From the NCBI RefSeq assembly GCF_000337575.1, contig NZ_AOIM01000042.1, positions 60,505 through 108,239 of the forward strand: DNA of 47,735 bases, given 5' to 3'. The notes beneath the pieces are model-generated. The model searched no databases and had not been told where the DNA came from. It was given only the letters and a program-made list of their open reading frames with translations. Made by a program: the position numbers and the translations under genes. This DNA comes from Natrialba hulunbeirensis JCM 10989. GTDB lineage: Archaea > Halobacteriota > Halobacteria > Halobacteriales > Natrialbaceae. Shown piece after piece: positions 6,981 to 42,565 of the stretch; position 1 is the stretch's first letter, and every line of letters starts with the position of its first letter.

Positions 6981-7431
6981 GAGCGACAGGAGCGGGCGAC
7001 AGGAAATAATGGTACTGATGGTGATGGAGCGGACGCCTGATGGTTACCGTGCCCCATCCGATAGTAGCCACTGCAAGTCACTGTACACCTGATCGTGCGA
7101 CAGCAGCGCGGTTCTCGCTCATTTCACTCGCTCCGAACCGCGGACGTGCGATCAGTGTGTACCCAGTTGCAGGTGGTACTATAGCACAGTGTTTCGTACG
7201 GCACAGGCAGCGCACGAACCCGATGACCTGACACGATTGCTGCCATCGGTTATAAATGAGCGACAAATATATCTGTCAGAGCCACACTCCGGGAACGTCA
7301 TCGACAAATGAGTGTATAGGAGTCCGCTCTGAATAGACGGGTGCCGGGGTGCCTCTGACAAACCGGCAGTGTTCGGTGGGTAGGCTGCCCGACTACGCAC
7401 CGACATTTCGTTTCGGGCAGGTGACGGTACG
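6981..7431. other. 450-nt intergenic region with a nested inverted repeat
   Basis: No convincing gene. The main structure is an imperfect hairpin at about 7081-7163. The inner arms CGCGGTTC (7107-7114) and GAACCGCG (7135-7142) match perfectly. The outer arms, around tgtacacctgatcg (7082-7095) and cgatcagtgtgtac (7149-7162), match imperfectly. The loop string ctcgctcatttcactcgct (7114-7132) matches 18 of 19 bases of 3651-3669 in the tRNA array. TATA-like strings occur at 7249-7258 and 7266-7273 on the plus strand without a matching gene. Confidence 0.5.
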
Positions 7432-8682
7432 TTAGGTCGACGTTGACTCGTAGAGTTCGTCGAGTGCCGCGTGATCCGAAAGCAGTGCCTCCATCTGGTC
7501 GACGGTGGCCGCGTCTCGAGTCCGACCGCTTCGGACGACGTCTTCGGCGCGTTCGACCGTGGTGAGTGTATCTGTCTGGACCGAAATGATGGGGAGTCCC
7601 TTTTCGGCCGCCTGGCCGATGACTGCACCGGAGGGGCGGTGGCCGCCAGTCAGGATGAGACAGCGAACGCCGGGGGCCTCGAGTGCCGCCGTCTGAATCT
7701 CCGCCCGGTCGCCGCCGGTGATGACGGCCGCGTCTTTCGTTCGACGGAAGTAGCGCAACGCGCTGTCGGCACCCATCGCGCCGACGGCGAAGCGTTCGAC
7801 GTAGGCGTCGGTCCCGTCCTCGACGAGCAGCGCCCCGCCGAGTTCGTCCGCGAGGGTTTCGACGGTCACGCCGGCGAGTGACTGCTCGCTCGGAACGATC
7901 CCAAAGACGGTCACGCCACGAGTTTCAAGGAACGGGACGACGTCCGTCTCGAGTTGGTCGTAGGCCGCATCGGCGACGTTGTTGAAGACGACGCCGACGA
8001 GTCGGTCTCCGAAGGCGTCGACGGCGGCGAGTACGTCGTCGATGTCGCCGGGTGTTTCGTACGGTGCGACCAGCAGGACGCTGGCGTCGAGCAAGGCGGC
8101 CACGTCCGGGTCGGTAAGGTCGACGATGCCGCCCACGTCGTATCGGCCACCGCCCTCGACGAACATCCGGTCGCAGTCGGCCGCAAGCCCTTCGTAGGCC
8201 TCGACGATCCGATTGCGGAGCTCTGGGGCGTCCTCGCGGCCCCGAAGGGCCTGTTCGATGAACGTCGGCGAGTAGACGACGGGCTCTAGGTCGTGCATCT
8301 CCGCGTCGAGGTCGAGGAGTTCGCGGGCGAGCATGGGGTCCTCGTCGAGCGTTTTGCCGACGTTGCTCTGCAGGCGTGTCCCCTTGGGTTTCATGTAGCC
8401 AACCTGCTCGCCGCGGTCCTGTGCGAGGCGGGCCAGTGCCATGGTGATCGCGGTTTTACCGGTGCTCTCCTCGAGCGAGGCGACCAGCAGTGGGTCGGCA
8501 TCCGTTTCGGGCGTGGGATCGTCCGTCGGTTCGGTTTCGGTGGCTGTGTCTGCGGTGTGGGCGTCAGTGTGGGTGGTTTCGCTGGTGTCGTCGGTGTCGG
8601 TGTTAGTGTCAGTGTCAGTGCCGGTCTCGGTGTCGATGGCAGCGTCAGTGTCGGTATCGGTGTCGGTATCAGTATCGGTCAT
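7432..8682 (-). CDS. Phosphotransacetylase-family (BioD-like P-loop plus DRTGG) protein
   Basis: 416 residues. After an unusual 60-residue Thr/Asp-rich leader comes a dethiobiotin-synthetase-like P-loop domain (EESTGKTAIT, near 71-80; MFVEGGGRYDVG), then a C-terminal DRTGG-type domain (VITGGDRAEIQTAAL, CLILTGGHRPSG). This architecture is annotated as 'phosphotransacetylase family' in archaea, but it lacks the true Pta catalytic domain. The ATG overlaps the TAA of the upstream acetate-CoA ligase by one base (TAATG), so the two are probably translationally coupled and may act together in acetate/acetyl-CoA metabolism or its regulation. The leader is encoded by a hexanucleotide-like tract and is probably a lineage-specific expansion. 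Confidence 0.85.
   Translation of the reverse strand: MTDTDTDTDTDTDAAIDTETGTDTDTNTDTDDTSETTHTDAHTADTATETEPTDDPTPETDADPLLVASLEESTGKTAITMALARLAQDRGEQVGYMKPKGTRLQSNVGKTLDEDPMLARELLDLDAEMHDLEPVVYSPTFIEQALRGREDAPELRNRIVEAYEGLAADCDRMFVEGGGRYDVGGIVDLTDPDVAALLDASVLLVAPYETPGDIDDVLAAVDAFGDRLVGVVFNNVADAAYDQLETDVVPFLETRGVTVFGIVPSEQSLAGVTVETLADELGGALLVEDGTDAYVERFAVGAMGADSALRYFRRTKDAAVITGGDRAEIQTAALEAPGVRCLILTGGHRPSGAVIGQAAEKGLPIISVQTDTLTTVERAEDVVRSGRTRDAATVDQMEALLSDHAALDELYESTST
8586..8682 (-). repeat. Hexanucleotide-like tract coding a Thr-Asp leader
   Basis: The plus strand shows runs of ggtgtc, ggtatc and agtgtc directly inside the start of the phosphotransacetylase-family gene, coding MTDTDTDTDTDTD and related text. 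Units of 6 nt keep the reading frame, so slippage would change leader length without switching the gene off. Confidence 0.75.
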
Positions 8683-33365: not shown

Positions 33366-33556
33366 ATTCGTGTGTCCGTGTCGGCCGGAATAACTGTACG
33401 GGTACGACTGCGCTGAGCCGGAACGCCACCGCGCCGGTCCACAATCCCACTGCGATGCGCCGGAACCCGACTGCGACGCGCCGAACAGCCACCGCGAACG
33501 TCGTCACCCACCGTACGACCGATGGTATTTACCCGTCAGCGACCCGAGCATCTCCC

Positions 33557-34027
33557 ATGACACTCGAGGTCGACACGCCAGCACCGCCGACGCTCGACTT
33601 CGTCGATCCGAACGAGTACGAGGATGCGACGATCAGTGCGAGCGGTACGGAAGAGATCGATTATCGCCGGGAGGAGTTACAGGAGTTCCTCGAAACCGGT
33701 GCGTGGGAGGAAGCCTTCGAGGAGTGGCGGGTCGACACCGACCTCGACGAGCGCGAGTTCAGTATCGCGCGCGACCTCGATCTCTTCGCCGATTTTGATT
33801 TCTTCTGGGACGACTTTGCGGACCGTGTGGGGTATCACGCCCCCGGAATCCCGGAAGACTGGCAGGCGCGGGAGTACCATCCCAAACTCGATACGTGGGG
33901 GACGGTCTCGGCGATCAACGCCGAACTGACGGAGTTCGGCCAGATCGTCTCGGTGATTCTAAAAGAGGAGTACATCGACTGGGAAGCGGAGTACGAGCCG
34001 CCGGAGGATCTGCCGGACTTCGACTGA
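33557..34027 (+). CDS. Conserved acidic haloarchaeal hypothetical protein
   Basis: 156 residues from the ATG at 33557 (MTLEVDT). Very acidic and rich in Trp, Phe and Glu/Asp (DLDLFADFDFFWDDFADRVG; YIDWEAEYEPPEDLPDFD). The composition and lack of low complexity point to a real folded protein. No family recognised. A TATA-like ggtatttac (about 33524-33532) lies 25-30 nt upstream. Codons upstream of 33557 in the same frame are Arg/Thr-rich shadow. Confidence 0.75.
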   Translation: MTLEVDTPAPPTLDFVDPNEYEDATISASGTEEIDYRREELQEFLETGAWEEAFEEWRVDTDLDEREFSIARDLDLFADFDFFWDDFADRVGYHAPGIPEDWQAREYHPKLDTWGTVSAINAELTEFGQIVSVILKEEYIDWEAEYEPPEDLPDFD

Positions 34028-36453: not shown

Positions 36454-39400
36454 TCAGCGTGTGAGCGCCACCGCCGCGCCGACCAGTACGAGGCCAAGAA
36501 CCGCGATCACCGCACCGATCGTTCCTGCGCCGGCTACTGAGAGGGCGACGGTTGCACCCGCGACGATGCCGGCACCGCCACCGCCGGCGAGCAGCGGACC
36601 AAGAAGAGTTTCTGGAGAGCCGGCCGTTTCTCCGTCTTGCTCGCCAGTCTCAGTCGTTTCGTCAGCGGTTTTCAGCTCTGCAGCCACATCGGCCACCTCG
36701 TCTACCTCTCGCTGCAGTTCCGACCGCAGCGACTCCACCTCGTCCGCCGTCACCAGTGGTTCCAACTCCTCCTGAGTCACTCCACTCCCAGCCTGCTCGT
36801 CCTCGAGTTCCCCGACCCGACCCGTCAACTGTTCGTGGTCGGACTCGAGTACCGTCTGCGCAGACGCAACAGAAGCCACGCGCTCATCAATATCGTCGAG
36901 GCGCTGGTTGAGGTTCGCGACCGCTTCGGACTCCGCAAGGTCGTCGATCCGCTCCGAAAGCGAGTCGACCTCTGCGGCCAGCGACGAGACGGTTTCGTCG
37001 TCTGGCACGTCTTCGGAGTTCGGCACGTCTTCGAGGGCCTCAGAAAGGGACTCGAGTTCGGTGTCGAGCCTGTCCACGTCGTCCGAGACGCTCGCTGTGT
37101 CGTCTGCGAGCGCCTCGATCTCTGCTGCCTGTTCGTCGATCGTTGCCGCCTGTTCGTCGACGGTCACCGCCTGCTCGTCGATCGTCGACTCCTGTGCAGA
37201 GAGTCGCCTCTCGAGTTCGTCCGTGGTCTCGTCGACGGCGGTGACGTCGGATTCGACGCTCGTAAGCGCGTCCTCGAGTTCGTCCACGTTTGCACGCGCC
37301 GTCTCAGCGGTTTCCTCGACGTCTGCAACATGGCTCTCGACGGCCCCAACGTCGGCAGCGACGGCGTCAAGCCGGTCGCCAGCGTCACCGACCTGGTCGT
37401 CGAGCGCGTCGATGCTGGCACGCAGGTCGTCGGTTTCGGTTGCGACTGTTGCCTCGGTTTCGTCGAGTCGGTCCTCGAACGTTGTTTCCGCTTCAGTGAG
37501 GCGGCCCTCAAATGACGTTTCCGTCTCGTCGAGCCGTTCTTCGAGTGCCGTTTCCGCCTCCTCGAGTTGTGTCTCGAAATCGGACACTACAGAGCCGATT
37601 CGCGTTTCGAGGTCCGACTCCGTCTCATCGAGTCGGCTCTCGAGTGCATCGACTTCGTCGGCCTGCGTCGACACGGCCGCCTCCGTTTCGTCGAGTCGCG
37701 ACCCGAGCGTCTCCTCGACCGACTTGAGTGCGTCCTCGATCGACTCGACCGTCTCGGCAGTCTCCACAGCGTGTGAGTCGAGCTCCGCTTCCACGTCCGC
37801 GACGGCTGACTCGGTCGATCCGACGCGTTCTCTGACCGACTCGAGTTCGTCGTCGATCGTCTCGTCGACGGCATCGACGCGGGACTCGAGTGCGTCCAGT
37901 TCCGCCGCGGTCGCGGACTGATCCGTCAGGTCGGCGACGGTGTCCTCGAGAGCAGTAAATGTCTCGCGGTCGGCCTCGAGTTCGGCCACCGTCTCGTCGA
38001 GATCGGATGCGAGGTCCGCGAGCGTCGTCTGGAGATCCGATATCTCGGCGTCTACCTCGTCGAACCGGGCGGTCGTGTGCGTCGAGTGCTCCTCGAGCCG
38101 ACCCGCGAGTCCGTCGAGTCGAGTGGCTTGCGTCTCGAGTCGGGGTTCGAGTTCGTCGAGCCGTGCGTCGGTCTCCGCAACAGTGGTAATCGCGTCCGCG
38201 CGGTCCGAAACGGTCTCCGAGAGGTCGGCAAGCCTGGCTTCGGCCTGCTCGAGTTCCTCCGCTACGCCCGCAAGGTCATCCGTCCGGGCTGTTTCCTCGC
38301 GGACTGTATCGAGAGTGGACTCGAGTGCGTCGAGGTCGTCGGCGAGCGCCTGAATTTCCTCGTCGCGATTGGCGAGACGGTCGAACAGGTGGTCGATGGC
38401 GTCGTTCGCGCGGTCGTCCGTGACTGGCTGGGGCTGTGCGTCGAGGTCGGCGGCGATGGCTGTGGCACCGGCTCCACGACCGTTGCTGGAGCCACTGGCA
38501 TCGCCGCTCGTCGACTCCGACTTCGGCTCCCCGCCGTCGTCGAGATCTCCGTCAAACGAGAGCGTGTCCGTGTCCTCGCTGCCCGTTCCTGACACAGTAT
38601 CGTCCCAGATAATCTCCTCGTAGGCATCGACATCGTCTTTTGCAGCGGCCAGTGCGCCTCTTACGGCGCTCGCCTCGGGCTCTGCCGCGCGTCGGACGCC
38701 GCGAATCGAGATGGGGAGCCCCGCCGAATCGAATCGTCCGCCGAGGAGGTACTCGAGTCCCTCGGCCGCGCCCGGGCCGGCGACAGCGATCGGGACGGCG
38801 ACGCCGCGCTGGAGATCGGCGGCCGCAGCCTGCTCGCTGAGGGCGTCGGCCAGGTCGGCGACGAGGTCGTCGTACGCTGCGGCGAGGGCGCGTTCGATCG
38901 GTCCCGTTGCGGCATCGGGATCGAGTTCGAAGTCTGTGAGAACGCTGCGGACCTGTGCGCGCTCGTGGCCGGTCTCGCCGGCCGCCTGAGCGACGATCCA
39001 GTCGGTGCCGCGGGCGATGGAGAACGCGAGGACCGGGACGCCGTAGTAGGCGAGCGCGACGCTCGTCGTCTGCGCGCCGAGACAGATGCCGATGCCGGTG
39101 TAGTTGTCGTCAGTGAACTGATCGTAGACGACGGCGAAACCCTGGCTGACTGGTGTTGGGGACTGTGAGTCGTCATCTTCGGTTTTCCCGGTAGCCGTCA
39201 GCTCGTCGAGTACCGAGGCAACCGTCTCGCGGTGTGCGCCAGTCGGCGCGTCAGCGTCGACGACCGTTCCTGGTGTCGTGTAGGAGAGTGCCGCCGGCGA
39301 GACGTCGTCAGGGAGGACGAGATCGACGAGTGCCGAAAGCACCGCCTCGTCGTACGCCGCGGCGGAGAACACGCCCTGCTGAAACGGGATGTCGTGCTCG

Positions 39401-39729
39401 GCGACAGTCGCGTCATCGTCCAATTCCGCTGCGATTTCCGCTGCCTCCGGCCCAACGAGCAGTGTCTCGTCGTCAGCTTCGACGAGCGCGACCGCATCAG
39501 CGTCGGCTGCAGCAATTGCGTCCTCGAGTGCATCGTTCGTTGCAGTGACTGCACTCGCTTCTGTGTCCGTGTCTGTCGCCGTCTTCGTTTCTGACTCTGT
39601 CCCGCTCTCCGTCTCCCCCGCTATCGACACCGACACAACCCGCGTCGGCGTCGAACGGAGCGCGACTTCCCCCGAGCGGTCGCTCGCGAGCCGAATTTCG
39701 TCTGCCCCAATATCGAGACCGTATGCCAT
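36454..39729 (-). CDS. Actin/Hsp70-like (ASKHA) ATPase fused to long coiled coil and membrane anchor
   Basis: 1,091 residues from the ATG at 39729 (MAYGLDIG). Residues 1-~365 read as an ASKHA fold: phosphate-1 YGLDIGADEIRLAS (3-16), helix/turn SQGFAVVYDQ (195-204), phosphate-2 GICLGAQTTSVALAYYG (214-230), adenosine motif VAVPIAVAGPGAAEGLEYLL, and the closing AEPEASAVRGALAAA (349-363). A linker is followed by heptad-like Leu/Asp/Glu text from about 440 to 1035, one of the longest coiled coils expected in an archaeon. The end (about 1045-1090) is two short hydrophobic Gly/Ala segments, a hairpin anchor. The canonical Asp in phosphate-2 is Cys here, so ATPase activity may be altered. I recognise no named protein with this whole architecture; the haloarchaeal actin homologue salactin is a possible relative of the head domain. 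Confidence 0.82.
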   Translation of the reverse strand: MAYGLDIGADEIRLASDRSGEVALRSTPTRVVSVSIAGETESGTESETKTATDTDTEASAVTATNDALEDAIAAADADAVALVEADDETLLVGPEAAEIAAELDDDATVAEHDIPFQQGVFSAAAYDEAVLSALVDLVLPDDVSPAALSYTTPGTVVDADAPTGAHRETVASVLDELTATGKTEDDDSQSPTPVSQGFAVVYDQFTDDNYTGIGICLGAQTTSVALAYYGVPVLAFSIARGTDWIVAQAAGETGHERAQVRSVLTDFELDPDAATGPIERALAAAYDDLVADLADALSEQAAAADLQRGVAVPIAVAGPGAAEGLEYLLGGRFDSAGLPISIRGVRRAAEPEASAVRGALAAAKDDVDAYEEIIWDDTVSGTGSEDTDTLSFDGDLDDGGEPKSESTSGDASGSSNGRGAGATAIAADLDAQPQPVTDDRANDAIDHLFDRLANRDEEIQALADDLDALESTLDTVREETARTDDLAGVAEELEQAEARLADLSETVSDRADAITTVAETDARLDELEPRLETQATRLDGLAGRLEEHSTHTTARFDEVDAEISDLQTTLADLASDLDETVAELEADRETFTALEDTVADLTDQSATAAELDALESRVDAVDETIDDELESVRERVGSTESAVADVEAELDSHAVETAETVESIEDALKSVEETLGSRLDETEAAVSTQADEVDALESRLDETESDLETRIGSVVSDFETQLEEAETALEERLDETETSFEGRLTEAETTFEDRLDETEATVATETDDLRASIDALDDQVGDAGDRLDAVAADVGAVESHVADVEETAETARANVDELEDALTSVESDVTAVDETTDELERRLSAQESTIDEQAVTVDEQAATIDEQAAEIEALADDTASVSDDVDRLDTELESLSEALEDVPNSEDVPDDETVSSLAAEVDSLSERIDDLAESEAVANLNQRLDDIDERVASVASAQTVLESDHEQLTGRVGELEDEQAGSGVTQEELEPLVTADEVESLRSELQREVDEVADVAAELKTADETTETGEQDGETAGSPETLLGPLLAGGGGAGIVAGATVALSVAGAGTIGAVIAVLGLVLVGAAVALTR

Positions 39730-39824: not shown

Positions 39825-40769
39825 CTACTGTTCGAGTTCGTACGGCTCGCCGATCGAAACCGCCGCTCCCGCCTCGAGCGTCTCGCCCCACGACGACTCG
39901 GGGACCTTCGTATTCACCATCAGGCGGAAGTAGTGGTCGAACCACGCCTCGCCTGCCCACTCCGGAAGCGTCCGCTCGCGCTGCTCGACGAACGTTTCCC
40001 GAAAGCCATCGGTTTCCTCGCCCGTATCCGGATCGCGCGTCGGCACGACACAGCGCTGACACGGGTTGATCCCCGACAGCGCTATGCCGCCAATATCGAA
40101 CGAGACCGCGTGGCCCGGCCGCTCGTAGAGCCGGTCCTCCCAGAACGCGGGCGCGTCGCTGAGCACAAGATTCGGACGAAGCCGCCGGCACATCTCCGCC
40201 GCGTCGATCTCGGGGTACCAGGACGCGACGGACTCGAGTGTCGCCTGTGAGATGACGGTCGGCCCGGAGGCGTCGGTGTCGTCCGGGAAGCCGCCGGCGT
40301 CGTTGCGCACGAGTGCGACGGGATAGCCGAAGTAGTCGGAGAGCCACTCGGAGAGGTGCTCGCGGTCGAGTTCGAGGTGGAAGGTGTGTCCGCCGGTGGT
40401 CGAGTCCGTTCCAGACCGGCTCGATTGGAGTGATCCAGACCGGTCGTGCTGGGCTGAGTCGGTCTCGCTGAGCGTCACCGTTTCGCGTTCGAGATCGTAG
40501 GTTGCACGTAACTGGTGAATCGTGGGTTCGCGTTTGCCGTTAACGTAGTCGCCGACCGTTTCAGGCGTACCCTGTGGCCGGCCGGTCGCGTTCGTCGTGG
40601 CTGTGCCGGCCCCGTCGCCGCTCTCACTCGACGACGTAGCCGTCTGTTCGACGATCGCATACCGACGATCCCAGGCGAGACCACCGTTCCGTTCGATCGT
40701 CGCCGTCTGTACCGCTGTCGCGTCAAGAGATTTGATCGGGTGTACGAGGATGCGATCCAGCGAGACCAT
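39825..40769 (-). CDS. MOSC-domain protein (YcbX-like)
   Basis: 314 residues. The N-terminal barrel starts LDRILVHPIKSLDATAV, with variable insertions near 45-70 and 105-125. The MOSC domain follows, with GHAVSFDIGGIALSGINP and the Cys motif NPCQRC, the sulfur-carrying Cys of YcbX and mARC-type proteins. Such proteins bind molybdenum cofactor and act in reduction of N-hydroxylated compounds or sulfur transfer. No partner gene is adjacent. Divergent from pckA, with an operator-like palindrome between. Confidence 0.88.
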   Translation of the reverse strand: MVSLDRILVHPIKSLDATAVQTATIERNGGLAWDRRYAIVEQTATSSSESGDGAGTATTNATGRPQGTPETVGDYVNGKREPTIHQLRATYDLERETVTLSETDSAQHDRSGSLQSSRSGTDSTTGGHTFHLELDREHLSEWLSDYFGYPVALVRNDAGGFPDDTDASGPTVISQATLESVASWYPEIDAAEMCRRLRPNLVLSDAPAFWEDRLYERPGHAVSFDIGGIALSGINPCQRCVVPTRDPDTGEETDGFRETFVEQRERTLPEWAGEAWFDHYFRLMVNTKVPESSWGETLEAGAAVSIGEPYELEQ

Positions 40770-41053
40770 CGGTGCTGCCGACGTGGTGCTGGTGCTTATG
40801 TGTGCTTATTCGACACATGACACGAGTACGAACAACGGCGAGTCTTGCCCTACGAGTTAGAATTATTTCTGATGTGAGTACTCATCACTACATATGTGAT
40901 TTCAGATACGTTCGTTCCGGAGAAAGATACCGTTACGAATTGGGAGTAGAGACGTATGAGCTGCCAAACATGAGATTCGGGTTGGGGAAGTCATGACACA
41001 CACAGAGCAAAATCCTCCACGTTTATACATCAGGATGATGGTGGGTTATGTAT
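40770..41053. other. Divergent promoter region of MOSC and PEP carboxykinase genes
   Basis: No gene is seen. A perfect 8-bp palindrome GAGTACTC (40876-40883) sits within gtgagtactcatcac, similar to the core of the ars operators. A TATA-like gtttatac (about 41020-41027) lies 25-30 nt before the pckA start at 41054. Function of the palindrome is unknown. Confidence 0.4.
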
Positions 41054-42565
41054 ATGTCCGAAACCGGGACGGAGCCCCGTCCGCTGGTCCGACAGCTTCC
41101 CGACCCAGTGACAGCGTCGAACGTCCGGCACAACCCCTCACTCGAGGAACTTCGCGAACTCGCAGCCCACGAGGAGACCACGACCGAGTTCGGCTCTCCT
41201 TCCTACGTCAGCGAGTACCGCTCGCGGAGTTCGGACCGGACGAAGAACAACATCGACGACGAGTTCGATGCGGACGACCACGCGCTCGTCGACGAGGCAA
41301 TCGACCTCGCGGGCGAGCGCGAACTGCTCTGTGTCGACCGGCTGATGGGCCGTCACCCGGAAGCGACGTTCTGCTGCCGGCTGTTCGTCCCCGTCGAACA
41401 CGCCCGCATCGCACTCGCCTGGGCGAACCTGTTCGAGCCGTCCGACGGCCGCGAGCCGGACCTCTACACGGTCCAGCTCCCCGACTACGACGAGACGGCG
41501 ATCCGCATCCTGCCTGAGGAGGGCTTCACCGCCGCTCTCGGCAGCGACTACACCGGTGAGGCCAAGAAATCCTTCCTCCGGCTGTTCATGTTCCGCACCA
41601 AGCAGCAGGGCGGTCTCGGCCTCCACGCGGGCAGCAAGCGCGTCCGCGTCGAGGACGAGGACGGCGACCTGAACACCGTCGGACAGGTGTTCATGGGCCT
41701 CTCCGCGACCGGCAAGTCCACGCTGACCTCCCACGGCTGCTGGCTCGAGGGTCCCGAAGACGCCTCCATGCGCCAGGACGACGTCTGTGCGCTCCTGCCT
41801 GACGGCTCCGTCGCCGGCAGCGAGGGGAAGGGCCTGTACATCAAGACCATCGGTCTCGACGAGGAGGAACAGCCCGGTCTCTACCACGCTGCGACCGACG
41901 AGACGGCCATCCTCGAAAACGTCGACGTTGCCGAGGACGGTACCGTCGACTTCGACTCTGACCATTACACCGCCAACTCGCGCGCGATCATCCGCCGGGA
42001 CGAACTCGAGAGCGCCGACGACGAGATCGATCTGGACGAGATCGATCAGGTGTTCTTCATCACGCGCAACCCGCTGATGCCGCCGGTCGCGAAACTGCGC
42101 GACGAGCAGGCCGCCGCCGCGTTCATGCTCGGCGAGTCGATCGAGACCAGCGCGGGCGACCCCTCGCGTGCTGGCGAGTCGATCCGCGTCGTTGGGACGA
42201 ACCCGTTCATCGTCGGCTCCGAGGGCGAAGAAGGCAACATCTTCTACGACCTGATGGGTGCACTCGATGTCAACTGTTACGTCATCAACACCGGCTACCT
42301 CGGCGAGAAATCCAAGGATATCGGCGTCACGGAATCCGTGACGATCCTCACCGAGGCCGCCCGCGGGACGATCGAGTGGACCGACGACGAGCAGACCGGG
42401 CTGACGATTCCCGAGTCGATTCCGGAACTCGACATCAAGGAGTACTACGTCCCGGACCACGTCGAGGACTACGACGAGGCCGTCGCAGAACTTCGCGCAG
42501 AGCGCCGCGAGTATCTGAAACAGTTCGAGGATCTCCGCGAGGAAATCGTGGACGCCGTCTACTGA
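41054..42565 (+). CDS. pckA: Phosphoenolpyruvate carboxykinase (ATP)
   Basis: 503 residues from the ATG at 41054 (MSETGTEP); an ATG two codons upstream is possible. It makes phosphoenolpyruvate from oxaloacetate and ATP, the first step of gluconeogenesis. The P-loop GLSATGKSTLT lies at about 215-225, followed by the metal/substrate segments SHGCWLEGPEDASMRQDD, KGLYIKTIGL and ANSRAIIRRDEL, and the adenine region GVTESVTIL. The kinase loop and length fit the ATP-type family. A TATA-like box lies 25-30 nt upstream. Confidence 0.92.
   Translation: MSETGTEPRPLVRQLPDPVTASNVRHNPSLEELRELAAHEETTTEFGSPSYVSEYRSRSSDRTKNNIDDEFDADDHALVDEAIDLAGERELLCVDRLMGRHPEATFCCRLFVPVEHARIALAWANLFEPSDGREPDLYTVQLPDYDETAIRILPEEGFTAALGSDYTGEAKKSFLRLFMFRTKQQGGLGLHAGSKRVRVEDEDGDLNTVGQVFMGLSATGKSTLTSHGCWLEGPEDASMRQDDVCALLPDGSVAGSEGKGLYIKTIGLDEEEQPGLYHAATDETAILENVDVAEDGTVDFDSDHYTANSRAIIRRDELESADDEIDLDEIDQVFFITRNPLMPPVAKLRDEQAAAAFMLGESIETSAGDPSRAGESIRVVGTNPFIVGSEGEEGNIFYDLMGALDVNCYVINTGYLGEKSKDIGVTESVTILTEAARGTIEWTDDEQTGLTIPESIPELDIKEYYVPDHVEDYDEAVAELRAERREYLKQFEDLREEIVDAVY

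Follow-up and report, generated by a model that had tools for sequence, protein, structure and literature searches.

An apparently ATPase-dead volactin paralog with a coiled-coil rod and a predicted membrane hairpin in Natrialbaceae

The window analyzed here is a stretch of 47,735 nucleotides from Natrialba hulunbeirensis JCM 10989. It contains a long minus-strand gene whose features and syntenic neighbors are listed in Table 1. An earlier, sequence-only reading of this stretch described the product as a giant membrane-anchored protein with an actin/Hsp70-like head followed by a coiled coil. Translation of the frame gives 1091 amino acids and a stop, and all motifs quoted in that reading are found in it. 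The start MAYGLDIG is shared by most homologues, with a few diverged variants (e.g., MATGIALS).

Table 1. Positions in the window of the long volactin-like gene, its parts and its syntenic neighbors.
Feature	Residues	Position	Strand	Basis
Conserved 190-aa protein, synteny marker on the opposite side		33455..34027	+	synteny
Whole gene, 1091 aa + stop: volactin-like head, linker, coiled-coil rod, membrane hairpin		36454..39729	-	translation
C-terminal two-segment hydrophobic hairpin, GGGGAGxVAG then VLGLVLVGAAVALTR	1045-1091	36457..36597	-	hydropathy, alignment
Coiled-coil rod	440-1024	36658..38412	-	heptad periodicity, low-confidence model
Conserved rod-start motif, DAIDHLFDRLANRDEEI	443-459	38353..38403	-	alignment
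Acidic Ser/Gly-rich linker, predicted disordered	365-439	38413..38637	-	pLDDT about 30
Actin-fold (Volactin PF25216) head	1-364	38638..39729	-	Pfam, AF2, Foldseek
Former adenosine motif, VPIAVAGPGAAEGLE; canonical VPVVVTGGTSSPxGFE	312-326	38752..38796	-	alignment
Phosphate-2 hairpin, TGIGICLGAQTTSVAL; canonical TGLGISFGAGMTNVCL, Ser not Asp	211-226	39052..39099	-	alignment
Catalytic Glu position, Gln here	196	39142..39144	-	alignment
Degenerate subdomain IB	29-124	39358..39645	-	identity, length, dN/dS
Phosphate-1 motif, GLDIGADEIR; canonical GLDVGTMNIL	4-13	39691..39720	-	alignment
MOSC-domain neighbor, upstream, often syntenic		39825..40769	-	Pfam; synteny
PEP carboxykinase, synteny marker		41048..42565	+	Pfam/NCBIfam; synteny

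The neighborhood is syntenic: PEP carboxykinase and the MOSC-domain gene flank the long gene on one side, and the 190-aa protein lies on the other together with a transporter and a cupin. The 190-aa protein gave no Pfam or NCBIfam match and is 62-95% identical at syntenic loci across Natrialbaceae. A function based on an operon was rejected, the neighbors being unrelated metabolic and transport genes.

The match of the head to the Volactin family (PF25216) spans residues 50-363 and scores 310.9 bits (E 1.5e-92), where the curated cut-off is 35. The AF2 model of the head, built from 28 sequences, has a pLDDT of 84.7 and a pTM of 0.85, and its elements follow the actin-type order. In a Foldseek search of the PDB with this model, BeeR, MamK and MreB rank first (E ~1e-10, probability 1.00). 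The two-domain fold proposed for the head as a generic ASKHA ATPase is thus predicted in its actin form, but the earlier reading missed the affiliation with volactin and overlooked a normal volactin encoded elsewhere in the genome. Just two volactin-family genes are present in this genome: the long form and a canonical 341-aa volactin on contig 43. In a head tree, 42 long forms make one group (100/100), canonical volactins another (99/99) and five related forms a third (92/87). Since the groups are separate, the long form is a paralog, not an ortholog, of canonical volactin, and on sequence grounds the head is a diverged paralog of this haloarchaeal shape actin. The tree is unrooted and its long branches meet; the three-part design may have had one origin or two.

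Behind the head, the linker has no secondary structure in the full-length AF2 model and is the fastest-evolving part of the gene. The rod opens with a motif, DAIDxLFDRLANRDEEI, that is nearly invariant in a 12-sequence full-length alignment. The coiled coil claimed earlier is borne out by a hydrophobicity period of 3.5 residues along the rod, which stands 12 SD above shuffled sequences (z = 12). The full-length model (pLDDT 55, pTM 0.29), useful for helix extent only and without a confidently modeled hairpin, draws the rod as a near-continuous helix with short breaks. A straight rod of this kind would be roughly 85 nm long at 0.15 nm per residue. The claimed two-segment hydrophobic end is seen by hydropathy, and its sequence is conserved among homologues. 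In a search of 21 genomes with the hairpin, one match per genome was obtained, to this gene only, with none in a genome without the gene; a hairpin common to other proteins was therefore rejected. Because there is no N-terminal hydrophobic segment, the head and rod should be cytoplasmic, as far as hydropathy indicates.

Against three close relatives, dN/dS is 0.10-0.15 in the head without subdomain IB and 0-0.10 in the hairpin; it is 0.24-0.38 in IB, 0.34-0.49 in the linker and 0.25-0.29 in the rod, the values for IB and hairpin being based on small site numbers. The low ratios in the head (without IB) and hairpin exclude a chance open reading frame. The frame is also intact in every complete long-form copy examined.

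When proteins were searched across 195 genomes of the order, long frames with the head came up in Natrialbaceae and, outside that family, in five genomes belonging to two families. Homologues with the same three parts exist, and the proposed succession of actin-fold head, rod and membrane end is supported; neither of the two findings that were to overturn the earlier reading was obtained. By a profile search of 125 Natrialbaceae genomes (tallies counted from its listing), the fusion is kept in 88, each with a second, canonical-type volactin match; 35 others have one canonical-type match, a further genome shows two matches, both canonical-like, and the last shows no match. Named carriers include Natrialba, Natronorubrum, Natrinema, Haloterrigena, Halovivax and Halobiforma. 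At eight of 12 non-carrier loci, the flanking markers are too close to hold the gene, and the other four lack the downstream marker. Undetected divergence in non-carriers was rejected for the former eight, where the syntenic interval is too short. One fixed chromosomal site in Natrialbaceae, with losses, is the simplest reading. A scan of viral contigs returned no relative, and a viral origin was rejected on this ground. The five related forms of the two other families (L056-L060) consist of a volactin head, a coiled coil and a C-terminal hairpin. They are without the catalytic Glu, retain the Asp in the GGDWID segment and have an IB of 53 residues; they possibly represent an independent origin of the design.

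The canonical volactin of this genome (L062:7405-8430) lies about 95 bp downstream, on the same strand, of a DUF7139 (PF23600) gene (L062:8526-9467), whose product combines several hydrophobic segments with a long charged tail. Both genes are close and co-oriented at most of the canonical volactin loci checked in several families, with the exception of L071 and L072. DUF7139 is a multi-copy haloarchaeal family found in 234 of 242 genomes, so only the paralog adjoining volactin is a candidate for its membrane partner. Genome G162 has three volactin copies with a DUF7139 neighbor each (L074, L075, L076); two of them are intact canonical volactins, and the third is broken. In genome G014, the start of a DUF7139 protein and the final ~120 volactin residues are joined in an apparent deletion chimera (L061, about 7214-7588). 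A separate family of actin-like proteins of haloarchaea (L145:721-1791, L146:1465-2529), only weakly matching Volactin (E about 1e-7), occurs in genomes without a volactin match above the cut-off; a search of the Natrialba genome with the L146 protein found no match.

The active site was compared between 21 distinct canonical volactins and 47 long or related sequences (42 from Natrialbaceae plus the five related forms). The motifs that bind and hydrolyze ATP in actin/ASKHA ATPases are not intact in the long form: phosphate-1 is partly kept, and phosphate-2, the adenosine motif and the catalytic Glu are lost or altered. The catalytic Glu (NEG motif), which aligns with the Glu of the MreB DEPMA motif, is present in all 21 canonical volactins and in none of the 47 other sequences. 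Its position is occupied by Lys or Arg in 28 of the 42 Natrialbaceae long forms. In phosphate-1, T9, M10 and N11, invariant or nearly so in canonical volactin, are replaced, and D6 and G8 persist in most long forms; Halovivax-type members (L045/L046) have lost even the phosphate-1 Asp. The phosphate-2 glycine has become Glu or Asp in 15 of 42. The adenosine GGTS, likewise invariant or nearly so in canonical volactin, is lost.

The sequence-only reading had taken the Cys at the phosphate-2 Asp site to mean binding of ATP without hydrolysis. This argument fails: the site is Ser in all 21 canonical volactins examined, and volactin, with its Ser, forms dynamic filaments (PMC10869688). Since canonical volactin carries Ser there, Cys alone cannot mean loss of hydrolysis, and the argument from it was rejected. 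The lost Glu, adenosine and phosphate-1 residues make a stronger case that the head is apparently ATPase-dead, and put ATP binding in doubt as well.

Erosion of the head is concentrated in subdomain IB (subdomain boundaries were set from the AF2 elements and the MreB alignment). Identity in IB is 0.91 among canonical volactins, 0.33 among long forms and 0.21 between the groups, and no other part goes as low. Canonical volactin has in IB one of its best-conserved parts, and the long forms have in it their least conserved one. IB has 53 residues in all canonical and related forms, whereas in Natrialbaceae long forms its length ranges from 10 to 89, with shortening to 10-30 in five sequences. In contrast, IIA_a and the IA C-terminus of the long forms retain 0.51-0.57 identity to canonical volactin. 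These values and the dN/dS ratios indicate that IB is relaxed and degenerate and that the rest of the head is under strong purifying selection. The pointed-end face of actin-fold polymers is made up of IB together with IIB, and the barbed-end face of IA together with IIA. IIB is not notably eroded in the long forms, so an argument about polymer faces rests on IB.

The protein belongs to a known actin family; its architecture is new, and its enzymatic activity is predicted to be lost. Open-licence literature on volactin, salactin and related subjects yielded no account of a volactin with rod and anchor. Its origin could be explained by duplication of a volactin gene, after which one copy would have lost the ATPase site and gained the coiled-coil rod and C-terminal membrane hairpin. 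As an actin-related protein tethered to the membrane, the product would work independently of a nucleotide cycle. Its head could dock on the end of a volactin filament by the kept face (IA/IIA, barbed-end side), and the degenerate IB side would be unable to accept a further subunit. Filament ends would thereby be capped or anchored, their distance from the membrane being loosely set by the rod. Such a nucleotide-independent, "Arp-like" paralog gripping volactin filament ends from the membrane is the tentatively preferred reading, a good possibility rather than a probable one. A dead paralog that binds filament ends explains the kept fold, lost ATPase, eroded IB and constrained anchor together. 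The one-sided conservation of the head gives indirect support for binding to one end of the parent filament, as by end-binding Arps. The absence of IB in FtsA, which does not prevent its polymerization, speaks against end-capping.

In Haloferax volcanii, timely disk formation requires the actin homologue VolA (HVO_2015), whose filaments are dynamic (PMC10869688). Volactin is reported as the only actin homologue identified there (PMC7617734). The filaments are reported to contact the membrane by their tips only, with binding factors that are unknown (PMC10869688). The long form cannot be a general tip anchor, because Haloferax and 35 Natrialbaceae have volactin without it. A competing and more general candidate anchor is the DUF7139 membrane protein beside canonical volactin. 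Co-occurrence of the long form with canonical volactin is weak evidence, since nearly every Natrialbaceae genome carries the latter. The chromosome-tether and envelope-spacing roles suggested earlier found no support. The part between head and hairpin varies more than ten-fold in length among homologues (about 80 to about 890 residues), which speaks against a precise ruler.

Instead of binding volactin, the protein could form a self-contained membrane scaffold, in which heads self-associate without nucleotide and the bundled rods, as a crescentin-like layer, give the envelope stiffness or shape. The long heptad rod and the small-residue-rich hairpin, suited to packing, agree with this explanation. 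FtsA is the best PDB match of the canonical volactin profile (E 8.8e-4), and nucleotide-free self-association of heads could be likened to the membrane-bound polymers of FtsA. However, so variable a rod fits poorly with a regular lattice, and most head-to-tail contacts of the actin type need the IB face, which is degenerate here. The head is also closer to volactin than to FtsA; a scaffold of this type appears unlikely. Alternatively, the dead actin fold could be an adaptor docking another partner (e.g., a DUF7139 protein, an SMC-like rod or the nucleoid), which the rod would hold near the membrane. Residues that are fixed specifically in the long form and differ from volactin, with changes such as S301 to R343, E160 to Q204 and A186 to G230 (42 of 42 each), point to a new conserved surface, and the rod-start motif could also bind a partner. 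The locus offers no linked partner gene, only those for PEP carboxykinase, the MOSC-domain protein, the cupin and the transporter, and the adaptor is considered about as improbable as the scaffold.

The switch proposed in the sequence-only reading, where the head binds ATP without hydrolysis and acts as a conformational switch or slow polymerizer, draws on the intact fold and the persistence of D6 and G8. The acidic replacements of the phosphate-2 glycine, the lost GGTS and TMN residues and the Halovivax-type members without the phosphate-1 Asp make it distinctly unlikely. A dispensable relic, in which a volactin copy joined to a coiled coil is decaying and now functionless, would suit the absence from 35 family members and the clean lack of the gene at the syntenic site, but is hardly credible given the strong purifying selection on head and hairpin and the uninterrupted frames.

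This membrane-tethered, apparently ATPase-dead paralog is a concrete and testable candidate for a volactin-binding factor in one haloarchaeal family. The long form may be an archaeal counterpart of the eukaryotic actin-related proteins that hold or cap actin filaments. If the preferred, filament-end-binding reading holds, specialized actin paralogs that regulate filaments would have an archaeal origin separate from the eukaryotic Arp lineage. Possibly the design arose more than once, given the related form in two further families. A bolder and more doubtful proposal is that it could be the first true "Arp" of archaea, possibly of prokaryotes: an actin paralog independent of nucleotide that acts from the membrane, via a single kept polymer face, to nucleate, cap or anchor filaments of the parent actin, and whose evolvable rod differs widely in length.

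Several known systems share parts of this design. Crescentin and intermediate-filament-like coiled coils place a long continuous heptad rod at the membrane, as the long form does, but they are without an actin head, and the similarity is that of a low-specificity coiled coil. FtsA is, like the long form, a membrane-attached actin fold, with the weak profile similarity to volactin given above. FtsA has no standard IB, and its anchor is an amphipathic helix. It is without a long rod and binds FtsZ, whereas the long form has a different device, a predicted membrane attachment by hydrophobic hairpin; no FtsA family is among the best 25 Pfam matches of the long form, where Volactin is far ahead. 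Salactin of Halobacterium salinarum is a dynamic haloarchaeal actin attached at the cell poles, and the available text of its description, which sets it apart, reports no rod or membrane segment (PMC10746226). MreB, MamK and BeeR, the closest solved folds to the head (11-16% sequence identity), are ATP-driven polymers with intact active sites, in contrast to the head, where active-site residues are lost. Volactin (VolA, HVO_2015, PF25216) has the same fold and belongs to the same Pfam family over nearly the full head length, and the segments YYxVPxxxFSxARG and PFSI..V.....P...ARGxLxAA are conserved in both. The long-form head is about 35% identical to canonical volactin and differs in the lost Glu, adenosine and phosphate-1 residues and the degenerate IB; the linker, rod and membrane hairpin are absent from volactin. 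Arp11 of the dynactin pointed end is a subunit of a soluble complex, unlike this rod-and-hairpin membrane protein, and provides a works-like analogy only: a diverged actin paralog that would be located at a filament end and couple other structures to it.
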